Below, in pieces: positions 7,747 to 39,940 of a DNA stretch of 64,000 bases; position 1 is the stretch's first letter; each line of letters opens with the position of its first letter. The position numbers and the translations under genes were made by a program. Below the pieces are notes generated by a model, which worked only from the letters and a program-made list of their open reading frames with translations, did no database searches and was not told the DNA's origin. Source of the stretch: an uncultured Lysobacteraceae bacterium (GTDB lineage: Bacteria > Pseudomonadota > Gammaproteobacteria > Xanthomonadales > Xanthomonadaceae); the NCBI GenBank assembly GCA_902825775.1, contig CADECF010000014.1, forward strand, positions 1 through 64,000, written 5' to 3'.

Positions 7747-10080
7747 TCAGGGCGCCGGCATCTTCAACGCGTATTCCTTCGGCGGCTCGGCGCCGAGCAG
7801 GTTGCGCACGAAGTAATCCCAGCGCCGGCGCGTCATGTACAGCGAATCTTCGCCGTAGCCGTGGCGCGCGTTCGGGAACAGGATCAGGTCGAAGTCCTTG
7901 TTGGCCTTGATCAAAGCATCGACCACCAGCCAGGTGTTGTAGGGCGGCACGTTGTCGTCCATGTTGCCGTGCGCCAGCAGGAGCTTGCCCTTCAGGTCTT
8001 TGGCGTACTTTTGGTTGGCGTGGGCGTCGTAGTTGTCGGTGCCGTCCTTGTTCTTGGTCAGCAGTCCCTGCCACTTCTCGGCCCAGTCGTCTTCGTACAC
8101 GCGGTTGTCGTGGTTGCCGCTCTCGGCGATGCCCACTTTGAAGAAATCCGGATACTTGAACATCGCCGTCGCGGTGGCGTTGCCGCCGCCGGAATGGCCC
8201 CACATGCCCGCGCGCGACAGGTCGATGAAGGGATAGCGCTTGGCCAGCTCCTTCATGCCCGCCACCTGGTCGGGCAGCGTGTTGTCGATGATGTTGGCGA
8301 AGTACGCGTCGTGGAACGCCTTGGAGCGGTACGGCGTGCCCATGCCGTCGATGGCGACGACGATGAAACCCAACTCGGCCAGCGCCTGGTGATCGTTGCG
8401 CGCGGGCGCGAAGCCGCGGCGGCCGACCGAACCGACCTGCGGACCCGGATAGACGTAATTGACGATCGGATACTTCTTGGACGGATCGAAGTTGGACGGC
8501 TTGAACATCAAACCGTACAAATCGGTCTTGCCGTCGCGCGCCTTGACCGTGAAGTCTTCCGGCGGCGTCCAGCCGGTCGCCTTCAAGCGGGCGATGTCGG
8601 CGCGGGCGATTTCCTTCACCACTTTGCCGTCGGCGCTGTCGCGCAGCACCGCGACCGGCGGTTCGATGGTGGTGGAATAGACGTCGACGAAATAGCGGCC
8701 GTCGTCCGACATCTTGATGCGGTGTTCGCCGTTCTCCGGGGTCAGCAAGGTCAGGCCCTTGCCGTCGATGCCGACTTTATAGAAGTGCTTGAAATAAGGG
8801 TCTCGCCCGGCTTCGCGGCCGGTGCCGGTGAACCAGATCGCGCCGGCCTTTTCATCGACGCGCATCACTTCGGCGACGTTCCAATCGCCTTGCGTGATCG
8901 CATGCATGAGCTTGCCGCTGGCCAAGTCGTACAGATACAGATGGCCCCAGTTGCTGCGCTGGCTCCACCACAGCACCGCATTGCTGTCTGGCAGGTAGCG
9001 CCAGTTGATGGCGTCGATGCCGCTTTCGAACCAGGTCTTCGCCTTCTCGCTGAAGACTTCGCGCACCGCGCCGGTGGAAGCGTCTGCGATGCGCAGCCAG
9101 GCCTGCTTGTGGTCGCGCGAGCTCGACGCGAACGCCAGCGTCTTGCCGTCGGGCGCCCATTGCACGTCTTCCCAGCCGCCGAAGCAACTGACGTCGTCGC
9201 ACTGGGTGGAGCGGTGCTGGTCGGGCGGCATCTTCAAACGCACGACTTTGGCGCCATCGACGTCGACGATCACGCGCTCGATCATCGTGATGTCCTTGTC
9301 GCCCACCAGCGGATACTTCCAGGTCTCGACCTTGGGATGGCCGACGCCGGTGCCGACCAGCGTCATCTCGCCGGTCTTGCGCTGATCCTGCTGGAACGTG
9401 GCGATCTGCTTGGAATCGGGCGACCAGACCAGGATCGCGCGGTCGCTGTGGGTCCAGCCGGCGTTGTCGGTGGCGTAGCCGTAATCCTTCACGCCGTCGC
9501 GGGTGAGTTGGGTTTCCTTGCCGCCGGCGAGGTCGCGCACCCACAGGTTCCAATCGCGGATGAAGGCTTCGCGTTTCTTGTCCGGCGACAGGACGCCGGG
9601 GCCGTCGTTCTTGGCGCTGCCGGATTTTTCTTTCGCGTCCTTGGCGACGCAGGTGCCGCGGCCTTTCAGGTCGCACAGGTATTCGCCGCTGCGCAGGGAT
9701 ATCTCGTAACGGCCGTCGGCGGCCATCTCGTAGCCGGTGACCGGCAGTTTTTCGGCTTTTACCGGCTTGCCGGTGGCTTTGCTCAAGGCCTTGGCCAGCT
9801 TGGCCTGGTCGAAGGCCGGCGCAGTATTGCCGGTGGCCACGTCCATCTGCAGGAAACGGTCGCCCTTGGCGTCGTGGTCGCGGTACCAGACATGGCCATC
9901 GTCGAGCCAGGAAGGATCCACCGAGTGATCGACCAGCGGCGCCGTGTTGTAGGACAGCCGGCGCTCGGCGCGGGCGTAGTCGTCTTTGGTGAGGGCGCCG
10001 CCCTGCGCCGCCGCGGCCATGGAAGCCAGCCCGATCGCCAATGCGCCGATCAGGCGCGCCATATGCATTTTCGAAACCAT
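7747..10080 (-). CDS. Secreted S9 prolyl oligopeptidase, dipeptidyl-peptidase IV-like
   Basis: The 777-residue protein has a signal peptide (MVSKMHMARLIGALAIGLAS), a DPP IV-type eight-bladed beta-propeller (about residues 90-510) and a C-terminal alpha/beta-hydrolase domain. The catalytic Ser lies in GMWGHSGGGNATA, the Asp in HGNMDDNVPP and the His in NARHGYG, giving a complete triad. Enzymes of this family release Xaa-Pro dipeptides from peptides outside the cytoplasm. The nucleophile elbow is GHSGG rather than the usual GWSYGG of DPP IV, so specificity may differ. Start at ATG 10080 precedes the signal peptide; a second ATG at 10068 is possible. Confidence 0.88.
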   Translation of the reverse strand: MVSKMHMARLIGALAIGLASMAAAAQGGALTKDDYARAERRLSYNTAPLVDHSVDPSWLDDGHVWYRDHDAKGDRFLQMDVATGNTAPAFDQAKLAKALSKATGKPVKAEKLPVTGYEMAADGRYEISLRSGEYLCDLKGRGTCVAKDAKEKSGSAKNDGPGVLSPDKKREAFIRDWNLWVRDLAGGKETQLTRDGVKDYGYATDNAGWTHSDRAILVWSPDSKQIATFQQDQRKTGEMTLVGTGVGHPKVETWKYPLVGDKDITMIERVIVDVDGAKVVRLKMPPDQHRSTQCDDVSCFGGWEDVQWAPDGKTLAFASSSRDHKQAWLRIADASTGAVREVFSEKAKTWFESGIDAINWRYLPDSNAVLWWSQRSNWGHLYLYDLASGKLMHAITQGDWNVAEVMRVDEKAGAIWFTGTGREAGRDPYFKHFYKVGIDGKGLTLLTPENGEHRIKMSDDGRYFVDVYSTTIEPPVAVLRDSADGKVVKEIARADIARLKATGWTPPEDFTVKARDGKTDLYGLMFKPSNFDPSKKYPIVNYVYPGPQVGSVGRRGFAPARNDHQALAELGFIVVAIDGMGTPYRSKAFHDAYFANIIDNTLPDQVAGMKELAKRYPFIDLSRAGMWGHSGGGNATATAMFKYPDFFKVGIAESGNHDNRVYEDDWAEKWQGLLTKNKDGTDNYDAHANQKYAKDLKGKLLLAHGNMDDNVPPYNTWLVVDALIKANKDFDLILFPNARHGYGEDSLYMTRRRWDYFVRNLLGAEPPKEYALKMPAP

Positions 10081-10197
10081 GTCGTCCCCTCGCAGTTCGC
10101 GCGCTGCCGCCAAACCGGAGGCGCGCATGAAGCCCGAATGCTAACCCGGGGGAGCGATCCCCTCCCCCTGCCTATGGTCCTGCCCGGACCGGCCGCC

Positions 10198-13100
10198 TCA
10201 CGGATCGGCGGCCGGCGCGGCCGCAATCCGGAGCCGGGTGCCCGCGGTGCGGGCGCGGCTGGCTTCGCCGTACATGAGTTCGGCCAGCGCAGGCGCGGCC
10301 AGGTAGTCGCCGGCATTGCCGGCACGCACGAAATAATGGATTTCGTGGCGGCCCGCCGGCAGGTATTCGGCATAGAAGCGCGGATTCTTGGGGTCGAGCT
10401 TGCGTGTGGAGAACGCCCAGCTGCCCGGGTCCGACAATCGTTCGAGCACCGGGCCGGCCACGCCCTTCAAGGAAAGGTCGGTAGGCCGCAATCCGCCCGG
10501 CACGCTGTCGGTGACGGCGACGAAATACCGCGGCGCGCCGCTGTCCACCGTCAGCGTGATGCGGAGCCAGTCGCCTTCACGAACCTGGACGTCGTCGCCC
10601 ACGAGTCGCCAGCGGCCGTCGCGCAGCACTTCATGGCGGCGCTGCAAGCCGAAGCCGACCGCTTTCGCATCCGCCCGCCGCGCATCTTCGCGATACTGCA
10701 ACTGGGCGATGAATGCCGTGGGCGTATCGGCCGTCTGGGCCGCCAGATTCAGCGTCTTCTGCTCCGGCAAGGCGATATCCCAATCGGCACGATCCTGTCC
10801 GGCCGGCAGCGACAACTGCGTGCGCTGGTCGCCGATTTGCGCCGACAACGATAGCGGCGCCTCCTTGGCCGCATCGGCCCCGCGCAGCGCCATCAGGCAG
10901 ATCGCGCCGGCCTGCGTATCCGTCGGGCCGGTGCCGCCGGCATAAAGATCGAACAATCCCGCTTGCAGTGCGCGCAATGTTTCCGCGCCGGCGAGTTGCG
11001 GGTATTGGCGCAGCAAGCCGATCAGCGCGCATTGTTCGCGCAGGGACGAACTCATCCAGCGCGTCGATGCCCCGCCGGTCCGCAACACCCGGGCCCGGCC
11101 TCGCACCTGCGCTTCGCCCAACAGGCGCGCCACGGCTTGCGGGGCCGCCGCGTGGCCGTTGCGCGCGAAGGCTTCCGCGGCGGCGACGCGCGCGCCGAGC
11201 GCGAGGCGATTCCACGCGAGCCACAACGCATCCAGTTGCGGGGCCGACGGCTCGACGGCCGCGAGCGCATAAGCCGACTCGTCGATCCGGGCGTCTTTGG
11301 ATTTTTCGCTCTTGCCGGCGTCCAATTGCTTGCCCAGAAATCCTTCGGCGCTAGGTTCGATGTCGCGATCGACCGGATGGCCGAGCTCGCGCAGCAACCG
11401 CAGCGCATGCACGCTGTACGCGGTAAGGGCCACCTGCGCTTGCGGTTCGTCTTCGAAGAATTCGTCGTCGGAGTTTTCGGCCTGGACGAAGTAGCGGAAG
11501 CCGCCATTCTCGTCCTGGAACACGGCGGCGTTGTCCACCGCTTCCTGCACGGCAGCGGATGCGTCCGGCCAGGTCTTGTCGCCGCGTTCCAACGCCAAAG
11601 CCGCGGCAACGGCGCGGCTCAGGATCTGTTCCCAACAGCGGTGCGGATAATCGCGCAGGTCGTCGGTCCAGCGTTGCACCACGCCGGCGTCGCCGCGCAC
11701 CAGGCTGAGTTTGAAGCGGGCGTCGCTGGCGCCGGCCGGAAGCGCCGGCAGTTCCAGCGACAAACGGTCGGCGCCGAGCCAACCGACCTGCACGACACGC
11801 GCATCGATCGCCGGCGACGCGACCTCGATCGTCGCCGCGACCGCATCGCGGCCGTCCGGCGTTTCGGCGTAGGCGGTCGCGGTCAGCGCGCCGGTGCGTT
11901 GCGGCGCGATCTCGGCGCCGAAACTCGACTGCCCGCGCGCGGCCAACGGCAGCGGTTGCTCGTGATCCAGCGCGGCATCGCCTTGTTCGCCGCCTTCCAC
12001 GCGCAGTCCTGCTTGGGCCTGCACGGCGGCGTCGCCGGTCTGGCGCACATTGGCCGCGATGCGCGAGCGATCGCCCGGGAAAATCCGCACCGGCGCCTGC
12101 AGCCGCGCTTCCACCGGCAAGCCCACTGCGAGTGTGGCTTCGGTCTTGTCGAAGCCGTCGTCGGCATCGCTGCTCCAGACCACCGCACGCCAACGGGTGA
12201 GATTGTCCGGTAGCCTCAGTTCGATCGTGCGCGATTCCCCCGGCGCGAGCCGAAGGTCCGGCAGCCACAACGCGGTATCGGCGAAACGGGTGCGCACTTG
12301 CGCCAGCGTCAACGCACTGCGGCGTTCCTCGCGTTGCAGTTGGGCATCTTCGCGTTTGCGGTTTGCGCCTTGCGGTTCCAAGGGGCCTAACGCGGCGGCG
12401 CCCACCACCGTGACCGAATCCAGCGAGGTCGCTCGCGCTTCGGTGACCATCGACGGTGGCGCTGGTGCTGGCTGCGGTGCGCTGAGCGTGCCCGGCGCAA
12501 GTAAGGCGACAGAGGTGGAATCTCGTGCCACCGGCAAGCGGCTGATCTGTTCCGCGCTCAGCACGGTCGTGGATTCCACCGACGTGACATCGATCGGATT
12601 CACCGCCTCATAACCGAGAACCTCCACCGTGTCGTGCTCGACGATGTCCCCTGCCGCCGCTGCCGCTGCGTCTGCGGCGGCCATAGCCGCATCGGCGGCG
12701 CAGTTAGCGGCAGTGGCCGCGTCATCGACGGCATCGCATTCCGGGCGCGGTGTGCGTGGGATGGCGGGCGCGCTCAGCCAGCGGCGCCACGGCATGTCGT
12801 TCCAATCCGTGAAGCCAGCGGTGGGCAGATAACTGCCGCCGCCCAAACCGCCCAACCACGCGTCGCCCAGCGGATCGAAGGCTTGCCACTGTTCCTGCGC
12901 CAGGGCCAGCATCGCATCGTCCATCACCGCCAGTACGGCGCTGCGCGCAGCTTTGCTGCGATTGCGTACGACGATGCGCACGGTGTCGCCCGGCTTGACC
13001 GAAGCGGCGTCGAAAGACAACGCCATCGCCGCCGGCGGTGCGTTGCCCGGCGTCCATTCGACCTGCGTTTCCAGCGACGATACCGCCGCGGGTCGACGCC

Positions 13101-16094
13101 ATGGACCGCCTTCGTCCCCTGCTTTCGGCGTAGTGCGGACATAGGCCAACAATTTGATCTTGGCGGGCCAGTCCGGCTGCGTGTCCAGCGCGAAGGTCTG
13201 GGTGGGCGAAGCGAAAGGCATCGCGCGGCGCTGCAGGACGCGGTCGCCCGCTACGAATGCGAACAGCACATCGCCGCGTTCGCCGTTCTGCTTGAGCACT
13301 ACGCGCAGCGGTTCGCCTGGGTGCGGCGCCGCGCCGACCACATCCAATCCGTTATTCGCGCCGCGATCCGACGCGTCGTCGCCCCGGACCCAGACATAAC
13401 GCTCGAGCTGTGCCGGTGCCGCTTCGCCGTTGCGCGCGATCAAGCGATAGCGGCCGCTTTTTTCGCGTGGGAAATTGCAGCCGGACGTTTGTCCGGTTTT
13501 CAAACGGCAGCGATGGACGACCCGCCCCGGCGCGTCGTCGGAAAACCCGGGTCTGAATTCGACTTCGACTTCAAGCTCCGCGCCGGGCTGTTCGCGGCCG
13601 TCCGCATCGATGACCACGCCCTGCAGTTCCACCGGCGTGCGCTCGTCCAACCACGCCGGCTGCATGCGCAGGCCGACGTAGCGCTGGTAACGCGCATAAC
13701 GCGCGTAGACGGGCGTCGAAACCGTACTCTCCCGATCGCTGGGCTTGACCTCGGCGCTGAACTGGACGCGGCCGAAAGCCGGCGGCCCTTCGCCAGGCTC
13801 TTGAGCGAAGGCAACGGCCAGATCGCCGCGCGCCCGGCCCTCGCCGTCGGCCGTGGACGCCAGCTCCGAGGTGCCGTCCAGGGCCAGCGGCTCGTACGCA
13901 TCGTCGTCGACGAACTCGAATTCGCGGTATTGCGGATAGGCCTTCTGCAACGGATAAGGTACGACGTAGGCGCTGATGGTGGTGATCGGCACGCCGGCCG
14001 CAACGCCGCCGGAGTAGTAGCCGGCCTGGATCTCGTAATGCAGCCGGTCGCCGTCGCGCAGCACGCGATCTTCGAGCTTGGCCTCTGCCCAGAGATCCTG
14101 CGTCCGGAACGTGCCGACGTAGAAACAAACGCCGTCGGGCGCATAGTCCTTGTCCGGGGATATGCAGTACGTGTCGTCCGGCAAATGGATCGGCAAGGCG
14201 ACCTCGCCGGAGAGGCTGCCGTCCTCGGCGACCGTCGCCGTCCAGCGCTTCACCGGCGACCGGTATTGGCGCGACAAGCGCAGTTCGCGAGATGTCGTCG
14301 CCGCTTGCGGCCTGAGGAGGCGGCCTCCGGTCGAGTCGCGCAGCCACAGGCGATAACGCACGGTCTCGCCCGCGCGATAGAGCGGGCGATCGGCCACACC
14401 CCACAGCTTCTGCTTCGCCGGCGCGCCCAGCTTCTCGCCGTACCTGTCCATGGCGTTCATCGGCAGCACCGCGCGCTGCGCGTCCGCGCGGGTCCGGAGG
14501 CCGCACGCAGCAACCACATCGGATACTGTCCCGTGTCGCGCTGTTCCGGCAGAACGAACTTGTCGGGCAATGCGATCAACGCCGTGCCGTCGGCGGCGGT
14601 CGTGCCCTGCGCGATCACTTCCGGCTGCGCCCGGGCGTTTTGCTGCCATAGCAATTCCACTTCCGCGCCCGCGATCGGCGCGCCCTGCCACGCATTGGCC
14701 CAAGCGAGCACTTCGCGGCGTCCGGCGACCGCGAACAGATCGAAATCGGGCGCCGCGAACTGCAACGCGATGCGCGGTTGCGCTTTCGGACCGGACGACG
14801 GGAACGACCAGTTCGCCCATCCGCCTTCGGCCAAGGTTTGCGCGGTGGTTTCGGACAGGATCGGCAACGCCTGATTGTCGGCGCGCGATGGCGTGGCCAT
14901 CGTTTCGCGACGCACCTCAGCGCCGATCCCTTCCACCACCAAGGTGGCCGGCGACGCATGGATCGTTTCGGCCAACGTCGGCAGCGCGACATCGCCGCGC
15001 AACAGGCTGCGCTGGTGGCCGGCGCGCAAGGTCGGCCGGTAATCGACGGTGCCGATCCGCACCATCGCGGCGGAGGCCAGCGGTTTGCCTTCACTGCGCA
15101 ATCCGGCCGGCGGCGGCAGCACCGTTTCGATGCGTGCGGCATCGATCTGCAAATCGACCCATTGCGCCGGCGCGCGCCGCAATTCGGCGGCTTGGTTGTC
15201 GCGGTAGTACGAGTACTCGTTGCCCGAACCCAGGAACTTGGCCTGCCCGGGCCAGCTTGCGACCCAGGCCTGTAGCGTTTGCTTGGAAACGGCACGCGAG
15301 AAGAACAGCCGTATGGTTTCTCCCGGCATGCAGTCCAGCGTCAGCCGATCCTGCTTCACCGCACCCAACACCGGTTCCAGCGCGCCTGCGCACGCGCCGC
15401 CGCGCAAACGGAAGGGCTCGTCCAACGCTACCTCCAGCAGCCGCTTCCGCTGCGTGCCGGTCAGCGGACCCGCTGTGGATTTCAGGCCCGGTACGATGTT
15501 CAGCGCGAATGCCGCTTCGCGGGTCGATGGCGGCGGCAGTTCGAGCGCGAAGCGGCGGGTGCGATCCCAGTCGCCGCGGGCAGGCAAGGCTTGCAAGCCC
15601 GGAACCACGGGCTTGCCGGCTAAAGTCGCGCGCAACACCGCTGCGGCGGATGCGGCCGTGATCGGAGCTTGGCTCTGCAAAACGATACGCGGCCGGGCAT
15701 CCGACCAACTTTCCATCGACGCGACGAGTTCGGGCCTGGCGGTGTCGGCGTGCAGCGTCTGCGCCGGCAGCGTGGCGCCGGTCTGCGTCTTCAGCCCGGC
15801 AGGGACATGAATGCGATAGCGCGTGGCGGCGGCAGGACCCTCATCCCCGAACCCGCAATAAAGCGTGTCGTCGGACTGCCAGTGGCATACCGCCGGTACC
15901 CGCGGCTCCAATCGCACGGCCGTTTCGCGCGTCCCTTGCCAAGTCTGCATAGGTTCGGCGAAGGTCAGTTGCAAGGCGCCGTCTTCGAAGGCAGCCGTTA
16001 CCGCCGCTTTCGGCGCCGTGGCGGCGGCCGCCGCGAACGCTGCGAACAAACACACGCAGGACCATAGCCCCGCGACCGTCACGTGACGTCGCAT
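10198..16094 (-). CDS. Large bacterial alpha-2-macroglobulin family protein, one apparent frameshift
   Basis: A COG2373-type protein of about 1965 residues if one base missing near 14490-14500 is restored; the two frames join as ..MWLLRAASG / DAQRAVLPMN... The N-terminus is a signal peptide (from ATG 16094, MRRHVTVAG..). Macroglobulin repeats follow, then the A2M domain signature DTALWLPDL..LPDNLTRW, and the thioester motif CWEQ (bases 11629-11640, about residue 1485), so it should be a covalent protease trap of the periplasm or outer membrane. Immediately before the A2M domain, in the bait-region position, is an unusual TonB-plug-like segment (see findings). It lies next to a secreted protease gene. 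The total length becomes an exact codon multiple after repair, supporting a simple deletion or sequencing error. Confidence 0.85.
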
Positions 16095-34492: not shown

Positions 34493-37400
34493 TTACCAGC
34501 CGAAGGCCGCGCCTGCGCCTACCGAGCTGTCGTCGCCGTTGAACGCGCCGCCGATCGTGATCACCGCCTTGTCGGACAACGCACGCTGGTAGCCGAGCGC
34601 CATCGCGTTTTCGCCCTTGTAGCTGCCCACGCCGACCGCGATGCGGTTCGCCGCGCGCACGCCGGCGGCCGAAGCGGTCATGTTGGCCATCGCCGCGCCC
34701 ATCGAACCGACCTGGCTGATGCGCTTGTCCTGTTCGTCGAAGCGCCCGTCCACCTCGCTGCGGAAGTTGCTGAAATCCAGCGACATCGAAGCGAACTTCT
34801 GGTTGGTGTAGGTGTTGGCCGACTGCAGCGTGGTGGCATCGCCGGCCTGCGACTGGCGCAGGTTGACGGCATCCGTGCCGACCGTCGCATCCGAGACGTT
34901 GGATACGCGCGTTCCCGCGGCACCGCCGCCGAGCGTCAGCTGTCCATGGCCCGCATTGTCGTAGACCACGGCGTTCGGATCCGCAGCCGGGCCAGTGGGC
35001 CCGGTCGGGCCTTGCGGGCCGGTGGGTCCGGTCGGACCCGTCGGACCGGTAGGACCCGTCGGGCCTTGCGGACCTTGCGGACCGGCCGGGATGTTGGCGA
35101 CCTGCGTGTACAGATCGGTCAACGATCCATCGATGGCGGTGAGCGCCGAACCGACGTTGTTGTAGCTGCCGCCCTGGATCGTATAGGTCGGGGCCGTGAA
35201 CACGCCGCCGGCGAAGCTGGCGCCGCCGCCGAACGCGGTTGCGAACGGATGCAATTGGCCGACATTGACCGCATCGGTGTCCATGACGCCCGCGGCCAAA
35301 CTGACGATCTGCCGCTCCGCACCCGCCGCGCCGACCGAAACGGTGTTGTTGCGGTCCGCGATCGAATGGTCTCCCAGCGCGACGCTGCTGATGCCGGACA
35401 CCTGCGTCCAGTTGCCGAGCGCCATGCTGTCGGCACCGTTGACGACGTTGCTCGTGCCGACGGCGGTGGTATTGGCCGCGATGAGCACGTTCGCCGTGCC
35501 TACCGCGGTCGATCCCGGTTCGTATACGAGGTTCGTGGACCCGAAAGCGTTTCCGCGTTCGGCAGCGACGCTGTTGTTGTCGCCGAACGCATTCCCATCG
35601 GCTGCCGTAATGAAGTTCTCGGTACCGACCGCATTGCCTCTCATGCCGGAAACGGAGTTGCCGTCGCCGATCGCGTTGCTGAAGAGTCCCGTGACCGAGT
35701 TGCCTCTGCCCATGGCGACGCTGAAGTTCGCGGTCGCGAAGTTGCCGCCGCCGATCGCCATGCTGGCCTCTCCAGCCGCTTCGTTATAACTGCCGATCGC
35801 CACGCTGCTCGTATTGCTGGCCGTATTGCCGATGCCGGCTGCGACGCTGGACGTCCCGCTGGCGACCGAATCGTCGCTGCCGTCGTTGGCGCCATTGGCC
35901 TTGAAGTAACGGCTCGTTCCCGTTGCCGTCGCCGCCACCGCGTTCAGCTGGTCCAAGTTCACCGCATCGGTGCCCTGCGTACCGGCCGCGACATTGGTGA
36001 TCTGCCGCTCCGAACCGGCCGAACCGACCGAGATCGTGTTGACGCGATCGGCGATCGAACCGTTGCCCAGCGCGAAGCTGCCATCGGCGCTGGCCACGGC
36101 GCCGTTGCCGAACGCGAAGCTTTCGATGCCGCTGGCGGTGCTCATGCTGCCCATCGCAAAACTATTGGCGCCGCTGGCGGTGTTGCCGATGCCGATCGCG
36201 GTGGACAGATCGCCGCTGACGTTGTTGCCGGTGCCGAACGCATTGCTGGCGAAACCGGTGCTCTGGTTGCCGAGGCCGACGGCGGCGCTGAAATCGCCGC
36301 TGGCGGTGTTGCCCGTACCGATCGCTGTCGAGGCCAGGCCGGTGGCAGTGTTGTAGTTGCCGACCGCCGTGGCGTCTTCGCCATCGACGATGTTTTCGCC
36401 GCCGAACGCATTGCCGTTCAAGCCGGTCACCGTATTGCTGCGGCCGAAGGCGTTGCTGCCGTCGGCATCGGCCAGGTTGAAGTAACCCACCGCGCTGCTG
36501 CTGTCGCCGTTGGCGTTGTTGACGAAACCGACTGCGGTCGCGCCGATGTTGGTGGCTTCGTTGCCCGCACCCACCGCGGTGCTGTCGTCGCCGGTCGCAT
36601 GGCTGGCCACGCCGGCGGCCATGCTGCCGATGCCGCTGGCGACGGCGTCGTCGCTGCCGTCGTTGGCGCCGTTGGCCTTGAAGTAGCGCGACGCGTTTGC
36701 GGATGCCGCGTTGAGCTGGTCCAGGTTCACCGCATCGGTGCCCTGCGTACCGGCGGCCACGTTGGTGATCTGGCGTTCGCCGCCGACGCTGCCGACCGAG
36801 ATCGTGTTGGCGCGATCGGCGATGGAGCCGCTGCCGAGCGCGACGCTGTCGGCGACGGTCGCTTGCGCGCCGCTGCCGAGCGCCACTGCATTCGCGGACG
36901 AAGCGACCGCACCGGTGCCGATCGCATTGCTGTCGCCGCCGGATGCCGCGGCCTGGTAACCGATCGCCGTGTCGTGCGTGCCGGAGGCATCGGCTTCGTT
37001 GCCGACCGCCAACGACTGCGTGCCGCTCGCATTGGCGAAATCGCCGATCGCGGCGGAAGAAACGCCGCCGCTGTTGGCGCCCGAACCCGCGGCCAGCGAG
37101 TACAGGCCGCCCGAACGCGCTTGCAGGCCGATCGCCATCGAGCCTTCGCCGCTGGCGATCGCATTGAAGCCGACCGCAGTCGCGCCGAAACCGCTGGCCT
37201 CGGTGTAACCGCCGATCGCAAGGCTGTAGCCGCCGGTGGCGCTGGCATCGTTGCCGAGCACCATGTCGTAATCGAGCGACGCGACCGAACGATTGCCGAC
37301 CACGATCGATTCGGCGCCGTCCGCGGTGCTGCCGTTGCCCAGCGCCATCGCGTTTTCGCCGCCGACGATGTTCTCGCCGCCGAACGCATTGGCATTGACG

Positions 37401-39481
37401 CCGGTGACCGTGTTGCCGCGGCCGAAGGCGTTGCTGCCGTCGGCATCGGCCAGGTTGAAGTAACCCACCGCGCTGCTGCTGTCGCCGTTGGCGTTGTTGA
37501 CGAAACCGACTGCGGTCGCGCCGATGTTGGTGGCTTCGTTGCCCGCACCCACCGCGGTGCTGTCGTCGCCGGTCGCATGGCTGGCCACGCCGGCGGCCAT
37601 GCTGCCGGTGCCGCTGGCGATGGCGTCGTCGCTACCGTCGTTGGCGCCGTTGGCCTTGAAGTAACGCGAGGCGTCGGCGGACACCGCATTGAGCTGAGCC
37701 AGGTTCACCGCATCGGTATCGGCCGTACCGGCCGCGACATCGGTGATCTGGCGTTCGCTGCCCGAGCTGCCGATCGACACGCTGTTGGCGCGCGTGGCGA
37801 CCGAACCTGCACCCAGTGCGACCGCATTCGGAATCAGCGTGCTGACCGTTGCGTTCTGGCCGATGGCCACGCTGCCCGCGCCGAGCGCGCTGGCATTGAA
37901 ACCGAGCGCGGCGGAACCGTCGCCCTGCGCGCGGCTGTTGCCGCCGACGGCCGTGCCGAGCACGCCCTGCGCATTGGCGCCGCTGCCTAGCGCGACGGAC
38001 GCATCGCCGGTGGCCTGGCTGAAGCTGCCGATCGCGGTGGCGGCAGCGCCGGTGGCGGCGGAGTTCACGCCGACCGCGACATTGCCGTCGCCGGTCGATT
38101 GGCTCAACGCGCCGACCGCGACGCTGCCGAACGCCGTGGCATCCGCTTCGTAACCCGCGGCGAAGCTGGCGATGCCCGTGGCGCTGTTGAACGCGCCGAC
38201 CGACGTAGCGACCAAACCGGTGGCGGTGCTGCGGTAGCCGATCGCGGTGCGATAGGCGTCCTGCGCGTCGCTGTTCGGGTCGGCGGTGGTGCCGGTATTG
38301 CTGTAGCTGCCGATCGCGGTGTCGCCGACGCCGCGCGCCTGTGCGGCGAAACCGACCGCGGAACCGAATTGGCCGGCGATGTTCGAACGAGTCGGATCGC
38401 CGAGGTCGCCGCCGCCGATCGCGGTGCCGCCGTACTGGCCCTGCGTGCTGGCGCCGGTGCCGATCGCGATCGCGCTGGCGCCGTTGGCGATGGCGCCGTT
38501 GCCCAGCGCGATCGTGTTGGCGTCGTTGGCGCTGCTGTTGGTGCCGCCGGCGAAGCTGTTGTCGCCGATCGCCTGGCTGTTCACGCCGGCGGCCATGCTG
38601 CCCAGACCGCTGGCGATGGCGTCGTCGCTGCCGTCGTTCGCGCCATTGGCTTTGAAGTAGCGGCTCGTGCCGGCTGCGGTCGCCGCCACGGCATCGAGCT
38701 GATCCAGATTGACCGCATCGGTACCCTGCGTACCGGCGGCCACGTTGGTAACCTGTCGTGCGCCGCCGGCGCGGCCCACCGAGATCGTATTGGCGCGATC
38801 GGCGATCGAACCATTGCCCAGCGCGAAGCTGCCGTTGGCGGTGGCCGATGCGTTATTGCCGAACGCGATGCTGCTGGTGCCGCTGGCCGTGCTGTTGCTG
38901 CCCATCGCAAAACTATTGGCGCCGCTGGCGGTGTTGCCCGCGCCGATTGCGGTCGACAGATCGCCGGTGACCGTATTGCCGGTGCCGAAAGCGTTGCTGA
39001 CCGAGCCGCTGCTCGTGTTGGCCAGGCCGACCGCGCTGCTGAAATTGCCGTTTACGGTGTTCGCCACGCCGAGCGCGCTCGAAGACTGTCCCGTAACGGT
39101 GTTGTAGTTGCCGACCGCCGTGGCGTCGGTGCCATCGACGGTGTTTTCTCCGCCGAACGCGTTGCCGTTCAAGCCGGTGACCGTGTTGGTGCGGCCGAAG
39201 GCGTTGCTGCCGTCGGCGTCGGCGAGATTGAAATTGCCTGCCGCGCTGCTGTTTTCGCCGTTGGCGGTGTTGAGGTATCCGAGCGCGCTGCTGTAATCGC
39301 CATTCGCGTTGTTCTGTACGCCGCATGCGACGGCGTCGGTGCCGCTCGCGGTGTCGTTGATGAGAAAGGCGCCGCCGTCGAACTGCAGGCAAACGTTGCC
39401 TGCCTTGGCGGGTGCAGTGGCTGCAAGAGAAAGGCCTGCCGCGATCGCTAGCGCGAGCGCGGTGTGGGTATTGCGATTCAT
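34493..39481 (-). CDS. YadA-like trimeric autotransporter adhesin with collagen-like segment
   Basis: A 1662-residue type Vc secreted adhesin. Signal peptide at [16 protein letters not shown]; a very long head of YadA/Hia-type repeats (AVG, AIG and SxAxG units); four copies of a [15 protein letters not shown] linker; and six neck-type motifs such as [18 protein letters not shown]. Residues about 1464-1499 are uninterrupted G-P-Q/T triplets, a collagen-like stalk. The final 70 or so residues ([21 protein letters not shown]...GAAFGW) are the YadA anchor that forms the trimeric beta-barrel. Start at ATG 39481 gives the signal sequence. Head blocks near 36443 and 37421 are nearly identical at DNA level. 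Expected role is surface adhesion or autoaggregation. Confidence 0.93.
36443..37620 (-). repeat. Direct repeat inside adhesin head (period 978 bases)
   Basis: About 190 bases starting at 36443 recur almost identically from 37421, an offset of 978 bases or exactly 326 codons. The surrounding module order is also shared. Recombination between copies would delete or add 326 residues in frame. Confidence 0.8.
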
Positions 39482-39940
39482 TCGGATCCCCCGTGTCGTT
39501 GATGGCCGACACCGCGCGCAAAAAACGCAGTCAGGGAGTCCGCACAGCGCTGCCCCCCCAGGCACCGGTCGTGCGCCTACCTTAGGGGGTATTGGCCCGT
39601 TTTGGAATGGGGGTCACAAAAACAATTTGAACTGAATCGTTTATCGGACGGCATGCCGTCACAGTTTGTGCGGCCGCAGCAAAACATGTGAAGACGCGCC
39701 CTCGGCGCTATACGCAGCAACGACTTACGTCCGATTACCGACAACTTTCATGCGCTTCGTGCACGCGCCCCGCGCACCGCATGCGCGTCGCGATCGGCTT
39801 CGAACATCGCGATCGATACGCATCAGTTTCCGATTTTTCTTACTCGCCCGATCGCATGTTCGTCCGTTTCGCGCGCTTTCTTTAATCGTCGATCGCATCG
39901 TCGACGACGAATGCATGCGCGACCGAAGGCGCAATGAGGG
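39482..39940. other. Intergenic region between adhesin and first protease unit
   Basis: The stretch between the divergent adhesin and protease-unit genes is less GC-rich than coding DNA around it. Short open frames here have no ribosome binding site or recognizable product. It presumably holds the adhesin promoter on the left; a promoter-like block for the protease unit begins at its right edge. Confidence 0.5.

Follow-up and report, generated by a model that had tools for sequence, protein, structure and literature searches.

Receptor-like TonB box in the bait region of an alpha-2-macroglobulin from a Lysobacteraceae bacterium and its relatives

The alpha-2-macroglobulin (A2M) described here, a thioester protease trap that is probably periplasmic, almost certainly carries in its bait loop a genuine piece of the N-terminus of a TonB-dependent receptor (TBDR), kept there by selection; this is judged from sequence comparison. 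The gene lies in a 64,000-nucleotide stretch of contig CADECF010000014.1 from an uncultured Lysobacteraceae bacterium (the window). We put at about even odds (roughly 0.5) the reading that the TonB box in this bait mainly serves as a short TonB-docking motif, and we favour TonB docking over a pure protease lure.

The window A2M is encoded by two overlapping frames on the minus strand, and no single open frame runs from the signal peptide to the C-terminus (Table 1). In the downstream frame, ORF2, Pfam recognises MG2 (1.5e-8), the A2M domain and bMG10 (3e-20), all above their cut-offs. The upstream frame, ORF1, has a start resembling a signal peptide by eye and a weak Pfam match to bMG3 (0.01). 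The switch between the frames is either a frameshift in the A2M gene or an assembly error. The A2M frames of relatives are 1895-2606 aa long in 18 of 20 cases and shorter in the other two; that of G014 likewise opens only just upstream of the bait box. Pfam finds no beta-barrel family in either window frame, and an NCBIfam scan of both returned no family for the receptor-like segment. The three stretches quoted in an earlier note on this DNA, including a second copy of SLDSVTVVGA, are all present in ORF2, and the CWEQ thioester is intact, as that note had said: its C, W, E and Q do not vary among 15 aligned orthologues, the window protein included. With PF00207 and MG domains, a CxEQ motif and a disordered bait between MG sandwiches, the protein has the features of a type I A2M. 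A second A2M, of another type, is encoded in the same genome (L118, G000:C3:193196-193438), with no TonB box in the stretch read.

Table 1. Positions of the A2M frames, their parts and the other proteins bearing the box
Feature	ORF2 residues	Position	Strand	Basis or remark
A2M N-terminal part, ORF1, 557 aa		14457..16130	-	aligns with N-termini of three orthologues, widest over residues 6-553
A2M C-terminal part, ORF2, 1540 aa		10198..14820	-	MG2, bait-region domain, A2M domain, thioester domain, bMG10
Frame-switch zone		14460..14495	-	against three orthologues, ORF1 homology stops at residues 549-553 and ORF2 homology starts at residues 112-117
A2M_BRD (bait-region domain) match	499-640	12901..13326	-	E 7e-4, 20.4 bits against a cut-off of 22.7 (sub-threshold)
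Bait linker between two MG-like sandwiches	726-847	12280..12645	-	predicted structure
TBDR-derived segment (Oar-type TonB box and plug start), 49 residues	730-778	12487..12633	-	homology to own-genome TBDRs
Second TonB box, SLDSVTVVG	799-807	12400..12426	-	TBDR-trained profile; aligns with family box LDx[VI]xVTGSR
A2M domain, PF00207	849-935	12016..12276	-	Pfam E 6e-7
Thioester motif CWEQ	1062	11626..11637	-	motif and orthologue alignment
Non-trap box proteins (VWA/YfbK lipoprotein, anti-sigma-like)		L413 7619-9439 and 13010-14131; L414 9143-10297; L415 8725-10587		

A structure model of ORF2 residues 480-960 (481 residues) was built with 24 orthologues. Its quality is weak overall (mean pLDDT 66, pTM 0.42); two confident beta-sandwiches flank a stretch in which pLDDT falls below 50 at model residues 247-276 and 284-368, and the receptor-like segment (251-299) is nearly all inside. 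Foldseek neighbours of the model are A2M, C3, C5, CD109 and the Salmonella and E. coli A2Ms (4u48, 4ziq). By its position in this model the segment is the predicted bait linker, which bears out the placement proposed in the earlier note.

When the 49-residue segment was used as a query against its own genome, it found the A2M itself and six TBDR frames (992-1070 aa) with 58-78% identity and E-values from 1.9e-9 to 3.7e-19. Plug matches (PF07715) above the Pfam cut-off overlap all six, and the sole TBDR of the six scanned in full (L002) also has CarboxypepD_reg and receptor-barrel families. Local alignment of the window bait with three own-genome TBDRs gave scores of 177-196, where the maximum from 300 shuffles each was 53. 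In-register DNA identity between the segment and three receptors is 68-69%, under the protein identity; silent sites have therefore drifted. The likeness to Oar-like TBDR N-termini that had been noticed by reading alone is thus true homology. Similarity to TonB plug sequences, also proposed, stands in part: the homology to TBDR N-termini is significant, and no Pfam plug family matches the segment itself or the window bait, which holds a TonB box and the first part of a plug only. A search of solved structures with the window bait found nothing. The SLDSVTV of the second box fits the TonB-box consensus tLDXVXV given for Xanthomonas in PMC1790865.

An orthologue survey, which the earlier note had suggested, was made with the A2M-thioester region as query against 395 genomes drawn from the family, and was limited to this region because a query including the receptor-like segment drew mostly receptors. 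The region matched in 50 of the 395 genomes, 31 of them (own included) at E <1e-50; it had no match in three other genomes of the window's genus. Thirty of the strong genomes are represented by loci L038-L067 and the 31st by L157, in which the box is present too; of the survey's A2M places that had come without loci, seven were taken up. It is clear that the receptor-like motif recurs. The strict box L[DE]x[VI]xVxG lies in the bait of 28 of the 30 loci and nowhere else in the available frame, the rest of the bait being hypervariable, and the Oar form (PIDVxSV) occurs in five, two of which are the loci without a strict box. In the bait alignment the box V is found in all 30 rows and the box G in all 29 rows with a letter there; L and G are invariant among 25 aligned sequences. 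Of the 48 residue differences in the box between nineteen within-group pairs, 37 fall on the residue preceding the L or on either X position; V/I accounts for 5, T for 3, the last residue for 2 and D for 1, and silent changes accompany these differences; that no pair shows a change of L, V, G or R follows by construction, since the box-picking pattern fixes these residues. A set of named loci (L158-L183, n=26, from Lysobacter, Luteimonas, Pseudoxanthomonas, Alkalisalibacterium, Arenimonas, Dokdonella and unassigned bins), which has many genomes in common with the G-numbered set, gave a box in the bait of 22; L165 and L169 have the Oar form, and the box is degenerate in L182 and L183, two of the three Dokdonella loci. 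Another motif that recurs in the baits, approximately PPVVFDDPSPMD, was seen by eye upstream of the TonB box in L039, L040, L043, L046, L047, L055, L061, L063 and others.

Beyond the box, plug residues (PVARDSTSVALLAPGT) are retained in the window and in four g58 genomes. The segment shares 23-35 identities over 36-47 aligned residues with these four relatives (62-74%), against 52-54% for the A2M-thioester region. The bait of L052 (G150) is nearer to an Oar receptor of the window genome (43/49) than to the window A2M (35/47). Oar-type and standard bait pieces alternate among the orthologues and the tree needs 2 changes; the Oar form may have been gained independently, or it may have a single origin. 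Such alternation would suit neutral hitch-hiking, in which recombination put receptor pieces without function into a loop that tolerates them, as baits do, and the frame of the window copy is broken. The box is nevertheless kept in those 28 divergent orthologue loci though the neighbouring bait hardly aligns, and a lineage-matched box occurs in another phylum (below), so that we consider a purely neutral origin very improbable.

A profile of 14 columns was trained on 33 receptor boxes of G000 and G129; these were aligned by a pattern close to the consensus, and the profile is thus dependent on that choice. Receptor rows L354, L357 and L368, which had been misread, were left out of the counts of this analysis, and the truncated rows L325 and L339 out of a separate count. 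The best place for the profile in the whole frame was the bait in 18 of 20 A2M frames, at 12.9-37 bits (L077 and L086 being partial), and the top score among 300 shuffled proteins was 12.5. The two exceptions, L079 and L080, are Oar types without a strict box. In the window ORF2 the second box scored best (12.1 bits), followed by the first box (7.6) and the next place (1.0); the window boxes are weak by this measure and their case therefore rests on direct homology to Oar. Among window genes called by a simple codon-bias script, some of which are wrong or over-extended, the A2M had the top score of 12.1 and the next, 10.5, fell in an unrelated frame. The box of the G129 A2M, TTLDRIEVTGSRI, is identical to the boxes of 4 of the 15 G129 receptor loci examined. 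Scores of 11-19 bits were also seen outside the bait in the non-orthologous L139, L208, L229, L237, L330, L339 and L340, and one of 11.4 bits near the A2M domain of L301. A match in L231 was rejected as a bait box, as it sits 823 residues before the A2M domain, outside the bait.

Other A2M types were also compared. The strict box is missing from all 69 stretches compared from other A2M types within the class, the window genome's second A2M included, and a looser pattern was absent from the bait of all 54 more distant named loci L184-L237. A search for the L035 type matched 5 of 398 genomes at a cut-off of 1e-20; the type was considered as a second boxed subfamily and rejected, as none of the five loci found (L238-L242) has a box, so that within this type a box is known from L035 alone. 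From one set of A2M places without loci, all were taken except G509, G686:C12 and G516. In gammaproteobacterial L102 the resemblance to receptor starts was suggestive against shuffles (1/200 and 10/200). One proteobacterial contig (CAJXPB010000003.1) bears three A2M genes, L223, L231 and L235, within ~25 kb.

In other phyla, three Opitutales A2M baits read like EAIYDLSPFTVDAAAEEGYFAA, and receptors encoded in these genomes have starts like EEIYELSPFEVVTEGDRGYFAA (LSPFxV...GY). The best match place in the whole A2M stretch was the bait, and for each genome's best receptor 0 of 200 shuffles reached the score; a second receptor of the L213 genome gave 7/200. Among Bacteroidia, Plug matched at E 0.1 or better in 3 of 28 baits scanned, with L345 and L347 above the Pfam cut-off. 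Twenty of 52 further A2M stretches were taken and seven of those scanned: L417 has a CarboxypepD_reg-like domain and Plug, both above cut-offs, L416 has a CarboxypepD_reg-like domain and, by eye, a box, and of the remaining five, four have a CarboxypepD_reg-like match without plug (three above a cut-off) and one has no match. The matches without a plug indicate that the CarboxypepD_reg-like domain alone is not receptor-specific. In L345, L347, L416 and L417 the plug and/or CarboxypepD_reg-like domains come directly ahead of the A2M domain and resemble the N-terminal module of a receptor. By eye, most Bacteroidia and Opitutia baits showed no receptor piece; candidate receptor starts in Porphyromonadaceae L233 (SLQEVVVRG) and Opitutia L301 and L307 were not significant against shuffles, and L304 was marginal (2/200 for one receptor, 92/200 for another).

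The box is also found outside traps. Searching three genomes of the family with a receptor peptide of 22 residues gave matches to receptors, A2Ms and two other protein types (Table 1). The first is a protein of the VWA/YfbK type; its start resembles a lipobox and its N-terminal linker contains the box (E 0.036 in G129, 0.74 in G265). The second, of 374-385 residues with one likely membrane span by eye, has the box in its distal part (E 6e-6 in G252, 0.007 in G129) and no match in Pfam or NCBIfam; its gene is directly downstream of a sigma factor gene, the product of which has Sigma70 regions 2 and 4 in G129, and we read it as anti-sigma-like from this gene position. The scores of these non-trap boxes are weak (E 6e-6 to 0.74), but the placing of the box repeats between genomes. 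In G129 a GGDEF-EAL protein is encoded between the VWA lipoprotein and the anti-sigma-like protein. That three unrelated protein types have the box in common, one of them encoded beside an ECF sigma factor, would agree with recognition by some other periplasmic or membrane protein with a TonB-like C-terminal domain, of which M56-type protease fusions may be an example, the box then being a sorting or cleavage signal in the A2M, the VWA lipoprotein and the anti-sigma-like protein alike. We regard this account of the box, with its hypothetical reader protein, as improbable.

A gene for an S9/DPP-IV-like peptidase (Pfam) adjoins the window A2M at 7747-10128, and in 15 of 20 loci a gene of similar look by eye occurs near the A2M, sharing its strand in 4 of those 15. 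Genes around the A2Ms and for the non-trap proteins were called by the same codon-bias script as the window genes, with the same liability to error. The remaining shared neighbours look like ordinary synteny, and no pbpC was recognised by eye among the A2M neighbours looked at. Elsewhere in the window, positions 34496-39613 hold a long frame of 1706 residues. A peptidase beside the trap is one of the points in favour of an integrated decoy, an idea close to the protease lure of the earlier note: the bait would imitate an unfolded, periplasm-exposed part of a receptor, so that a protease attacking receptors cuts the trap instead and is captured. The receptor pieces do sit in the predicted cleavage loop, and Plug exceeds its Pfam cut-off in three Bacteroidia baits (L345, L347, L417); the decoy is in play chiefly because plug residues past the box are kept in the window, the four g58 relatives, at an identity above that of the A2M-thioester region, and some Bacteroidia. 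Against it, the non-trap proteins have the same box, the common core is the TonB-box consensus, and position is weak evidence when the bait provides the main disorder in the modelled fragment. Furthermore, we know of no protease with such specificity for receptor N-termini, which also counts against a decoy. We therefore consider it possible but rather unlikely as the main role of the bait.

The preferred reading, docking to TonB, starts from the receptors themselves, where the TonB box interacts with TonB according to PMC6434023 and PMC1790865; the same motif in a flexible periplasmic loop should be available for the same binding. In human A2M, as described in PMC9352918, a Gly/Ser bait keeps function and loss of bait continuity is what triggers the change in the protein. 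Trapping alone therefore need not conserve the bait, and conservation of a motif within it needs another reason. The conserved core matches the tLDXVXV consensus, the box recurs across the family baits, and the Opitutales versions are matched to their lineage, all of which we count for docking. A protease-bait role would make no sense in the VWA lipoprotein or the anti-sigma-like protein, so the presence of the same box there argues for a docking motif over a bait-specific lure. Of the two possibilities in the earlier note, a lure for receptor-attacking proteases or phage- or bacteriocin-associated enzymes, or interaction with the TonB machinery, the latter is favoured, since the family-wide core is the TonB box and not the plug and the box recurs in two unrelated non-trap protein types. 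Several observations point the other way: plug residues beyond the box, amounting to much of the plug in some Bacteroidia, are not explained by TonB binding alone; L079 and L080 lack a strict box, two of the three Dokdonella boxes are degenerate and other A2M types are mostly boxless; and the non-trap scores are weak and the window frame is broken.

If docking does occur, the C-terminal domain of TonB, or a protein with a TonB-like domain, would bind the bait's box as it binds that of a receptor, the bait being flexible, which would put the trap where TonB meets outer-membrane receptors. Since one loop holds both the box and the cleavage site, a cut in the bait would spring the trap and sever it from TonB at the same time. 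The homology, the position in the bait, the conservation across the family and the lineage-matched versions are computed results; the periplasmic location, the binding, the placement and the coupling to cleavage we infer. A bolder extension gives the TonB box a general use as a docking code of the periplasm beyond receptors, with traps, VWA lipoproteins and anti-sigma-like proteins among its users. In A2M the bait would then be pulled by TonB and the proton-motive force, and this pull would arm, spring or reset the trap, which would act as a force-gated inhibitor where receptors and TonB join. We would treat this as a long shot.

The role of bacterial A2Ms is unsettled, and a receptor docking motif matched to the lineage's own receptors provides a concrete, testable partner. 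The bait box suggests, too, that TonB has partners besides receptors; TonB systems in TBDR-rich bacteria would then be viewed differently. The box is common to related traps, and receptor pieces of a similar kind turn up in some traps of two other phyla, which points to a link between traps and TonB that has gone unrecognised. A literature search, thin on subscription papers, returned no report of a TonB box in an alpha-2-macroglobulin, which does not establish its absence in print; Pfam sees plug domains in some Bacteroidia A2Ms, so database annotations of such an architecture may exist.

The closest known traps are ECAM/YfhM of E. coli and the Salmonella A2M, which resemble the window A2M in MG domains, disordered bait, A2M domain, CxEQ thioester and fold (4u48, 4ziq). 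To our knowledge, no TonB box has been reported in either; this is from general knowledge, their baits being outside the present comparison. In TonB-dependent transducers a receptor reportedly contacts an anti-sigma factor; the TonB system is likewise tied to an anti-sigma factor there, whereas here the anti-sigma-like protein itself bears a TonB-box-like motif. The own-genome Oar-like TBDRs share the TonB box and plug start with the A2M, at up to 78% identity over the 49 residues, but the A2M has no barrel family and part of a plug only. Oar/PopC of Myxococcus xanthus (PMC6434023) similarly has an Oar plug and TonB box working with a protease; there Oar is an intact receptor needed for export of the protease, whereas here it is a protease trap that bears the start of an Oar.
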